This document shows positions 20,845 through 37,624 of a DNA stretch of 64,000 nucleotides, piece after piece. A program made the translations under genes and the position numbers. This stretch comes from Natranaeroarchaeum sulfidigenes (lineage in GTDB: Archaea > Halobacteriota > Halobacteria > Halobacteriales > Natronoarchaeaceae): positions 124,001-188,000 of the forward strand of contig NZ_CP064786.1 in the NCBI RefSeq assembly GCF_017094485.1, read 5' to 3'. Below the pieces are notes generated by a model. It saw nothing but the letters and a program-made list of their open reading frames with translations. It was not told where the DNA came from and searched no databases. Position 1 is the first letter of the stretch; each line of letters begins with the position of its first letter.

Positions 20845-21357
20845 ATGAGCCACTCGACCTCCGCGGGCATTAGGGGACGATTCGACGACCTCGACGGGCG
20901 CGATCTACTCGCACTGGCCGGGTTCATCGTCGGCGTCAACGTCGTCGGCGCGCTGCCGGCCGTCTTCGCGGGCTCAGACACCTCCTGGATCGAACGACCG
21001 TGGTTCTACCCACCGGAAATCGCCTTTCCGATCGTCTGGACGCTCCTGTTTACGCTGATGGGCCTCGCCCTCTTTCTCCTCTGGCGTCGCGGGATCGGGC
21101 GACGTAACGTCAAGCTCGCATTCGGCGTCTTCGCCGCCCAGATGGCGATCAACGTGACGTGGACGCCGGTCTTTTTTGGCCTGCAAGAGCCGGGCTGGGG
21201 ACTTGCGATCGTCCTCGCGCTCTGGGTAGCAATCGTCGCGACGATCTACGCCTTTGACCGGGTGGATCGGCGCGCTGCCGCCCTGCTGGTGCCGTATCTG
21301 GCGTGGGTGAGTTTTGCGGCGGTGTTGAACTTCGAGATCTGGCAGCCAAGCGGTTGA
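20845..21357 (+). CDS. tspO: TspO/MBR-family membrane protein
   Basis: A 170-residue protein with five hydrophobic helices. The TspO signature is present: WFYPPEIAFPIVWTLLFTLMG, AINVTWTPVFFGLQEPG and a last helix PYLAWVSFAAVLNFEIW. The family binds tetrapyrroles and cholesterol-like ligands and is linked to stress and pigment regulation. A 24-residue hydrophilic N-terminus precedes the first helix. It is divergent from xpd and is followed by a membrane-bound regulator gene after 67 bases, possibly in one transcript. Confidence 0.9.
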   Translation: MSHSTSAGIRGRFDDLDGRDLLALAGFIVGVNVVGALPAVFAGSDTSWIERPWFYPPEIAFPIVWTLLFTLMGLALFLLWRRGIGRRNVKLAFGVFAAQMAINVTWTPVFFGLQEPGWGLAIVLALWVAIVATIYAFDRVDRRAAALLVPYLAWVSFAAVLNFEIWQPSG

Positions 21358-21424: not shown

Positions 21425-22039
21425 GTGAACGCAAGACAGGCAGATTACGTGGCGCTGGTAGTTGTTGGGGCCGTGCTCCTCATCGGGCTCGCGCTCACCT
21501 GGCAGTCCTACCAGCAGTGGCTCGCGCTGGGAGAGATGGGCGGGCATATGGGTGACGGGGCGGCGGCGATGCACGGCACGCACCCGCTATGGTACCTGCT
21601 CGGCACCGTCGTCGCCGTTGCCCTCGTGGGCGGTGGCTACCTCGCGGTCCGCGATCAGTTCGTCGCGGACGATGCTACTGGGACCACGAGTGCGGTGATG
21701 GCCGACGACCCAGTGGCGGCTGATGCTGGCGTCGATTCGGCTGCGGACACGGCAGGCGACGGTGGAACCGGTGATACTGTCGAGTCGAGTGATGCCGACG
21801 AGTCAGACCGTCCATCACGCCCCCTCCTCGACGTCCTGCCCGAAGACGAACGCCGCATTCTCCAGCCAGTGATCGACTCACCGGGACTGACCCAGATTGA
21901 ACTTCGCGATCGTGCCGACTTCTCGAAGAGCAAGGTGAGCCAGACGGTGAGTGACCTGGAGCAACGCGGACTGCTCTACCGCGAACCGCAGGGGCGGACG
22001 TATCGCGTGTACCCGTCGGACGATCTCGACGAGCCATAG
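21425..22039 (+). CDS. Membrane-anchored winged-helix regulator with Met/His-rich outer loop
   Basis: A 204-residue protein with a GTG start at 21425 (MNARQADYVALVVVG); a GTG at 21404 is an alternative. Helix one covers about residues 8-28. A loop with MGGHMGDGAAAMHGTHP follows and then helix two (about 58-78). A low-complexity Asp/Ala/Thr linker leads to a MarR-like winged helix near 140-200 (LTQIELRDRADFSKSKVSQTVSDLEQRGLLYRE). The short loop outside the membrane has four methionines and three histidines, like copper-binding segments. This is a one-component sensor layout. The neighbouring secreted His-rich protein has a similar Met/His stretch. Confidence 0.8.
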   Translation: MNARQADYVALVVVGAVLLIGLALTWQSYQQWLALGEMGGHMGDGAAAMHGTHPLWYLLGTVVAVALVGGGYLAVRDQFVADDATGTTSAVMADDPVAADAGVDSAADTAGDGGTGDTVESSDADESDRPSRPLLDVLPEDERRILQPVIDSPGLTQIELRDRADFSKSKVSQTVSDLEQRGLLYREPQGRTYRVYPSDDLDEP

Positions 22040-22104
22040 CGCGACACTCCCGAAATCTGGCCGGACGAACGATCTCCTCGAAAAGAACGTCTCAAAACCG
22101 CGTA

Positions 22105-22124
22105 AAAACGTTCTAAAACGTTCT
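22105..22124. promoter_or_regulatory. Tandem decamer upstream of the His-rich protein gene
   Basis: AAAACGTTCT occurs twice with no gap (22105-22114 and 22115-22124). The reverse of its core, AGAACGT, lies at 22084-22090. The site is about 70 bases before the His-rich gene and 70 bases after the membrane regulator. It is a candidate operator for that regulator. Confidence 0.4.
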
Positions 22125-22190
22125 CGTGGGTAAGTTCACAGCCATGGACATAACCATCCATGCCTCATTTGTACAACTGGACGCACTACC

Positions 22191-22559
22191 ATGAGACAGA
22201 CACTGACCACAATCGCCGTCGCACTCGCGGTCATCGTTGCACTGTTCGGAGCTGTCGGCTTCGTCAGTGCTGACACGACTGACCAGGAACAGAATCCACA
22301 GACGAACGGGCCCGTCGGACCGATGGCCGATCACGCGCCCGGGCAGTTCGGCGAGATGATGCAGGGTATGGCAGGTGAGCACGTCCCGGGCATGCACAGC
22401 GATGATCACGAACACGGTGAACATCACGCCGAGCACGAACCCGGTGAACATCACGCCGAGCACGAACCCGGTGAACATCACGCCGAGCACGAACCCGGTG
22501 AACATCACGCCGAGCACGAGTCCAGCGAGCGCCATGCCGGGAACGGCGGCCACTGCTAA
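22191..22559 (+). CDS. Secreted His-rich repeat protein, possible metal binder
   Basis: A 122-residue protein with a signal peptide (MRQTLTTIAVALAVIVALFG then VSADTT). After a Met/Gly/His stretch (MMQGMAGEHVPGMHSDDHEHG) there are four copies of the nonapeptide GEHHAEHEP; the last is altered. It ends HAGNGGHC, with one terminal Cys. More than a fifth of the mature chain is histidine, which suggests binding of Cu, Ni, Zn or Co outside the membrane. The DNA repeats are identical, which points to recent tandem expansion. It follows a membrane regulator with a Met/His loop. No transporter is adjacent. Confidence 0.75.
   Translation: MRQTLTTIAVALAVIVALFGAVGFVSADTTDQEQNPQTNGPVGPMADHAPGQFGEMMQGMAGEHVPGMHSDDHEHGEHHAEHEPGEHHAEHEPGEHHAEHEPGEHHAEHESSERHAGNGGHC
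22416..22523 (+). repeat. Four tandem 27-bp repeats inside the His-rich gene
   Basis: The unit starts GGTGAACATCACGCCGAGCA and is 27 bases long, a multiple of three. Copies lie at 22416-22442, 22443-22469, 22470-22496 and 22497-22523. The first three are identical and only the end of the fourth differs. There are no spacers, so it is not CRISPR. Copy number could change by slippage without breaking the frame. Confidence 0.9.
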
Positions 22560-37083: not shown

Positions 37084-37306
37084 CCGGACGAACGGTCTCT
37101 ACTATTTCGCGGCTTCAGAAACGATTATAAACGCTATAGTGGCGTCTCCAAGATGAGTTTTCGTCCGTACTGCTAACCGGATAGCACAACAATGGGACAG
37201 TGAGAGCAATGACATACAGAACCGAGATTGTTCGACGGACACGTTCGTGGGCTACCTCGCCCACCGAGACAGCAGGGGACACGTCCCACACCGTCGGGGT
37301 GGTCGG

Positions 37307-37624
37307 ATGAGCGACGCCATCCTGCGCGGCGTCCTGCTGGCCGTCGCCCTGATCGTTTTCCTCCCGCTGGTATGGATGACCACTGGCCTGTTCGGAGCCG
37401 GTACTCACATGGGCGGTGGTCTCATCGGTGGAGGGCTGTTCGGTCTCGTCCCGCTCCTGTTGCTGGTCCTGTTCGGGTACGGTCTGTACGTGGCGCTGGT
37501 CGACGACGATTCCGAGCAGGAGACCGACGCGGCGCTCGACGAACTCCGTAGGGCGTACGCTCGTGGCGATCTCTCCGACGAGGAGTTCGAGCGCCGACGC
37601 GAACGTCTCCGCCGGAACCGATAG
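37307..37624 (+). CDS. SHOCT-domain small membrane protein
   Basis: A 105-residue protein taking the ATG at 37307 (MSDAILRGVLLAVAL). Two hydrophobic helices with a Gly-rich connector (GAGTHMGGGLIGGG) come first. The C-terminal 30 residues, LDELRRAYARGDLSDEEFERRRERL, are a SHOCT motif, a short helical pair common at the ends of small membrane proteins and thought to mediate oligomerisation. It is convergent with hisG, three bases away. Confidence 0.8.
   Translation: MSDAILRGVLLAVALIVFLPLVWMTTGLFGAGTHMGGGLIGGGLFGLVPLLLLVLFGYGLYVALVDDDSEQETDAALDELRRAYARGDLSDEEFERRRERLRRNR

Follow-up and report, generated by a model that had tools for sequence, protein, structure and literature searches.

The window, the whole 64,000-nucleotide stretch of DNA analyzed here, contains a gene for a transmembrane winged-helix regulator (positions 21425 to 22039, forward strand, GTG start, 204 residues) followed by a gene for an exported Met/His-rich protein (22191 to 22559, forward strand, 122 residues), with an array of short repeats in the DNA between them. 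The preliminary description had proposed a metal-response module in which a membrane-anchored winged-helix protein senses a metal outside the cell, a His-rich secreted protein holds that metal, and a tandem decamer between the two genes serves as the operator; both open reading frames are present at the places it gave. The locus is flanked by TspO and RfcS, with no copper gene alongside. The TspO/MBR gene (20845 to 21357) lies just upstream of the regulator and was excluded as a component of the module because it is not a recurrent neighbor in relatives.

The regulator comprises a short N-terminus, a first transmembrane helix (TM1, residues ∼8 to 26), a Met/His loop (residues 38 to 54), a second transmembrane helix (TM2, residues ∼57 to 75), an acidic linker, and a C-terminal winged helix of the MarR/DUF7343 type. 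The two hydrophobic helices have mean Kyte-Doolittle values of 2.4 and 1.9 (19 residues each), and the AlphaFold2 model places helices at residues 3 to 39 and 54 to 84 around a loop at residues 40 to 53 with fair confidence; the winged helix is poorly resolved in the same model, with low pLDDT. At the sequence level, the winged helix (residues 140 to 194) scores above the cut-offs of both MarR_2 (PF12802, 36.5 bits against 27) and DUF7343 (PF24034, 33.5 bits against 27.6), and the ArsR/SmtB metalloregulator model NF033788 reaches only 19.4 bits, far under its cut-off of 55. The regulator sequence contains no cysteine and does not meet the Cys-ligand criterion of CopY, CsoR and most ArsR sensors. 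A sequence search of the PDB returned nothing significant (2eth is a weak match, E 0.0063), and a Foldseek search with the model, in which the winged helix has low pLDDT, gave no match at E ≤ 0.001, the MarR-like structure 2eth appearing at E 1.8.

The loop itself, MGGHMGDGAAAMHGTH (residues 38 to 53, codons at 21536 to 21583, forward strand), contains three Met and three His in 16 residues; the previously claimed count of three His holds, and that of four Met is too high by one. This richness exceeds chance: in relatives, Met makes up 13.8% and His 4.4% of the loop, versus 0.1% and 0.3% of the protein beyond residue 100 (68 distinct proteins, including L126, which lacks such a loop, and L091, in which it is poorly defined). 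All 37 sequences of one alignment (A3) share Met42, His50, Gly51 and Pro54. A few members of the wider homologue set (e.g. L059 and L079) have loop Met without loop His, so the ligand set varies. Because TM1, loop and TM2 precede the DNA-binding C-terminus, the loop would lie outside the cell if the winged helix lies inside; this direction of the topology is inferred.

The exported protein consists of a signal peptide, the Met/His stretch GEMMQGMAGEHVPGMH, EHHAEHEPG repeats and a C-terminal GGHC, and contains 19 His (16%) and 6 Met. Its His array is encoded by a 27-bp DNA repeat present in 4.2 copies (22407 to 22519). No Pfam or NCBIfam family was found for those exported proteins that were tested, the window's included. 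As a lone query, the window protein matched only 8 genomes because the mature part diverges, and the remaining partner genes were revealed through synteny and the promoter. Neighbor clustering over 86 loci places an exported protein near the regulator in 47, mainly at positions +1 or +2, with smaller clusters of like proteins besides; in most loci, the partner adjoins the regulator or sits 1 to 4 kb away. These partners have in common a signal peptide and either a Met/His region (e.g. WMxxHMTEHMGPGSVEWMESHMGVTVDEM) or a His array, and the C-terminus is usually GHC or GGCH. Of the 67 distinct ORFs that follow strong promoter matches, a set that includes a few SHOCT or non-target ORFs, 57 have a Cys among their last three residues.

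Between the two genes, the decamer AAAACGTTCT occurs twice in exact tandem (22105 to 22124); this is the sole match at ≤3 mismatches in the 64 kb, and none of 100 shuffles yielded a match. The decamer, previously described as a candidate operator, corresponds to boxes C1 (22105 to 22114) and C2 (22115 to 22124) of a conserved 94-bp promoter composed of four ACG boxes, a GTTCACACCCA element and an ATAAC element, all on the forward strand. Ahead of it lie box A (GAACGATCT, 22067 to 22075), whose AACG is invariant in 34 promoters, and box B (GAACGTCTC, 22085 to 22093), which has diverged in the window from the AAACGnTTAGA of relatives. Behind it lie element D (GTTCACAGCCA, 22134 to 22144), conserved as GTTCACACCCA in relatives, and a conserved ATAACC (22150 to 22155), a TATA-like element ∼40 bp before the ATG whose role as a TATA box is inferred. 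In a gap-free alignment of the regions upstream of the exported gene, the relatives' consensus is GAACGgTCt for box A, AAACGnTtAgA for box B, AnACGtTCTc for C1 and GaACGtTCTC for C2, followed by GTTCACACCCA and GATAAC. The ACG cores fall at alignment columns 6, 25, 45 and 55, a spacing of 19, 20 and 10 bp (18, 21 and 10 bp in the window). The distance from this block to the ATG is constant in nearly all loci, even where the gene lies 1 to 4 kb from the regulator.

Archaeal activators usually bind upstream of the TATA element. Boxes A to C occupy such a position, ∼25 to 80 bp upstream of the TATA-like element, which suggests activation. It remains possible, if rather unlikely, that the regulator is instead a repressor, the unliganded protein on the array blocking transcription until metal releases it, as in soluble sensors of the ArsR/CsoR/CopY type. 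MarR-type winged helices are often repressors, and the end of the array, ∼25 bp ahead of the TATA-like element, would permit steric interference; however, boxes A to C lie upstream of the TATA-like element, not over it or the start site, and an autorepression signature is missing, the array being absent from the region upstream of the window's regulator. Autoregulation in general was also rejected: the regions upstream of distinct regulators contain no array above the shuffled level, isolated cases excepted, and at L084 the array upstream of the regulator is that of a divergent target.

Beyond the regulator locus, the putative activating array has a second copy in the window (37088 to 37178, forward strand). 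The promoter model that detects it covers 94 positions, uses sequence only, and was trained solely on promoters of Met/His genes. Its best match genome-wide is the array described above (22064 to 22155, 62.8 bits, E 6e-17), and the copy at 37088 to 37178 is second (16.7 bits, E 0.014 genome-wide, E 3e-4 in the window), with a PWM score of 14.1 versus -29.6 for the next best site in the window. The third match (G000:C1:1318554) falls within a coding sequence and was treated as noise. The second copy is located directly upstream of a gene for a SHOCT-domain membrane protein (37307 to 37624, forward strand; PF09851, 32.5 bits, cut-off 27), so that the boxes of the decamer front another gene in the same genome. 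The window belongs to a 3.04-Mb haloarchaeal chromosome. Because the genome has only three SHOCT genes, the chance of landing ≤300 bp upstream of any of them is ∼1.5e-4 (900 of 6.08 million strand positions). SHOCT is also the commonest neighbor of the regulator in relatives (44 to 48 loci), and the array precedes SHOCT genes in seven of them (L059, L070, L072, L079, L080, L112 and L124), as well as one DUF302 gene (L250). The SHOCT membrane protein is proposed as a putative second target in the window's genome.

Several further features surround these arrays. The second array is separated from the SHOCT gene by a 33-codon ORF (37209 to 37310, MTYRTEIVRRTRSW...) whose stop codon overlaps the ATG of that gene and which possibly encodes a leader peptide; a short ORF likewise precedes the SHOCT genes of L059 and L070. 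Two genes before the SHOCT target comes a TATA-binding protein gene (PF00352, 36087 to 36647), after which a DUF7473 membrane protein is encoded. In L047 and L124 (both minus strand), the array precedes a lipoprotein-like ORF that is halocyanin-like by eye and had no Pfam match for the stretch tested.

Of the order's 293 genomes, 80 contain homologues of the regulator (E ≤ 1e-13, full-length and partial both counted), and in four of these 80 there are only fragments. Most homologues share 50 to 64% identity over the full length, and they are distributed over many families and several plasmid-titled records; carriers of the module include Haloferax, Haloarcula and Halorubrum species. Searching the same 293 genomes with the promoter model gave strong matches in 79, and both elements are present in 76 (odds ratio 1330, Fisher p 3e-61). 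These statistics are descriptive only, since relatedness and linkage inflate them, and the co-occurrence is not fully independent because regulator and target adjoin in many genomes. In the four regulator-only genomes (G112, G164, G232 and G243), the regulators are truncated or fragmentary, and in the three promoter-only genomes (G027, G162 and G246), the target has been lost: G246 has a fusion of the target's signal peptide with the SHOCT tail, and in G027 and G162 the promoter leads into SHOCT remnants. As far as sequence can tell, the parts of the module decay jointly, all seven exceptions going with decay of one partner, and the pairing of regulator and target is conserved. An unconserved pairing would have refuted the preliminary description, yet the regulator, the exported Met/His protein and the decamer promoter co-occur across the order. 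At loci L246, L247 and L249, the array is kept without the regulator, ahead of SHOCT remnants or of the fusion of signal peptide and SHOCT tail.

That a different regulator binds the array, the membrane protein being merely a linked gene, is allowed by the absence of binding data and by targets that can lie 1 to 4 kb away or elsewhere in the genome, but is made very improbable by the presence of regulator and array together in 76 genomes with decayed exceptions, and by a winged helix that is almost invariant across the order, recognition-helix region included.

Genomic neighborhood analysis points indirectly to a class of metal. P1B-ATPase genes are encoded at 22 of 70 regulator loci, versus none of 20 control regions, each 20 kb long and taken from the same genome set. 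Their motifs are mostly CPC (often with GMxCxxC) or CPH, which are typical of copper/silver transporters, and SPC in three. Further neighbors include HMA proteins (15 loci), Csp-like four-helix proteins (7) and multicopper oxidases (5). The commonest upstream neighbor is an ArsP_1/COG0701 permease (28 loci), and DUF302 occurs in 22 loci; these two are not metal-specific, nor is the permease copper-specific. Outside the window, the same genome contains a decayed second winged helix of the regulator (G000:C1:1077235-1077435, L096) with two TAG codons. A CPC-type P1B-ATPase bearing a GMSCTTC domain is encoded ∼2 kb away, which suggests that another copy of the module once stood at this copper locus and has been lost. 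Moreover, Met, His and Cys substitute for each other between clades in the exported protein, as expected for ligands of Cu(I)/Ag(I) rather than Zn or Ni. Together, the copper-type neighbors, the decayed copy near an ATPase and the ligand exchange favor Cu(I)/Ag(I), as an inference: copper or silver is most likely the metal, judging from neighbors and ligands in the absence of metal-binding data. Both a SHOCT membrane protein and a COG0701 permease are reported as induced in a silver RNA-seq study of Haloferax alexandrinus; this is only a lead, because the loci have not been matched to the module.

The Met content of loop and target could also be read as a sign that the loop senses an oxidant (hypochlorite or peroxide) through methionine oxidation, the secreted protein acting as a scavenger, and Met-rich scavenger peptides are known in bacteria. 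This is doubtful at best: the target is His-rich rather than Met-rich in several clades, the window's included, the recurrent neighbors are P1B-ATPase, HMA, Csp-like and multicopper oxidase genes, and no methionine sulfoxide reductase stood out in the recurrent neighbor clusters (without a dedicated search).

We consider it probable that a one-component membrane regulator senses a soft metal, likeliest Cu(I)/Ag(I), binds the array and most likely activates the gene for the secreted Met/His protein. Outside the cytoplasmic membrane, the Met/His loop between the transmembrane helices would sense Cu(I) and/or Ag(I), and metal bound there would alter helix packing or dimerization and thereby the placing of the winged helices on the phased boxes. 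The cytoplasmic winged helix would bind the roughly 10-bp-phased RACGNTCT boxes upstream of the target core promoter, most likely as an activator. The main target would be the secreted Met/His-rich protein, which may bind or buffer metal outside; further targets would be the SHOCT protein in the window's genome and DUF302 and halocyanin-like genes in some relatives. The architecture, the pairing, the promoter array, its second site, the joint decay of partners and the copper-type neighbors can be read from the sequences themselves. The direction of the topology, DNA binding by the regulator, activation over repression, the metal and the buffering role are inferred, as is each mechanistic step from loop topology through helix packing to box placement. 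A membrane-tethered regulator of this kind would need to act on targets that lie kilobases away from the gene encoding it. The preliminary reading has survived every computational test made and is supported to that extent, with the metal still to be shown.

In the wider phylum, the winged helix is common to proteins retrieved at E 1e-13 to 1e-20. Many of these relatives (L287 to L298) have two hydrophobic helices and loops such as HHMMMHSPYY, HHYMMMGPYY or GHMGMMGMMG, and an exported Met-rich ORF lies downstream in L292 and L290; L294, L295 and L297 have a different, larger, extracellular-looking N-terminal domain instead. The case is evenly poised for an old archaeal one-component copper/silver sensor with an outside Met/His loop that acts directly on DNA, found in haloarchaea and in other archaeal lineages of the phylum, where the loops are of the HHMMM type and an exported Met-rich gene sometimes lies downstream. 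If true, one archaeal protein would do what bacteria do with CusS/CusR.

The module is real, conserved and of the transmembrane one-component kind, its regulatory role being inferred, and is apparently undescribed to date: no paper on DUF7343 or on the module was found in the open-access literature, a search that left most subscription papers and all bioRxiv preprints uncovered. Archaeal metal sensing outside the membrane is poorly known, and the module supplies a putative sensor, a putative operator whose boxes are defined, and a set of defined target genes, testable in culturable haloarchaea. It also hints at what a secreted protein with no Pfam or NCBIfam match might do and offers a lead for SHOCT membrane proteins.

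Compared with known systems, the regulator shares its winged helix with MarR and DUF7343 proteins, exceeding both curated cut-offs, but unlike them it has two N-terminal transmembrane helices and a Met/His loop, and its putative operator is a direct repeat, not a single palindrome. With ArsR/SmtB it has only the weak winged-helix similarity noted above; unlike that family, it lacks cysteine, and its putative metal ligands lie outside the DNA-binding domain. The CopR regulator of Pyrococcus and the Lrp regulator adjacent to copA in Haloferax are soluble. Both control archaeal copper/silver genes (PMC7830388 and PMC10694973, respectively), as is inferred here, whereas the present regulator is membrane-embedded, cysteine-free and built on a MarR-type winged helix. 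The class of transmembrane transcription regulators (TTRs; Demey et al. 2023, PMC10269533) is defined by a transmembrane region and a DNA-binding domain in a single protein, and the regulator resembles it in that a transmembrane region and a predicted DNA-binding domain are both present in its sequence. The main text of that survey contains neither ‘metal’ nor ‘MarR’; in the present case a short Met/His loop is the putative sensor, and comparative genomics supplies the operator and regulon. The module as proposed would resemble CusS/CusR of E. coli (PMC10100754) in sensing copper outside the cytoplasm and controlling metal-handling proteins of the envelope, but would differ in uniting sensor and DNA-binding domain in one polypeptide, without kinase or phosphotransfer.
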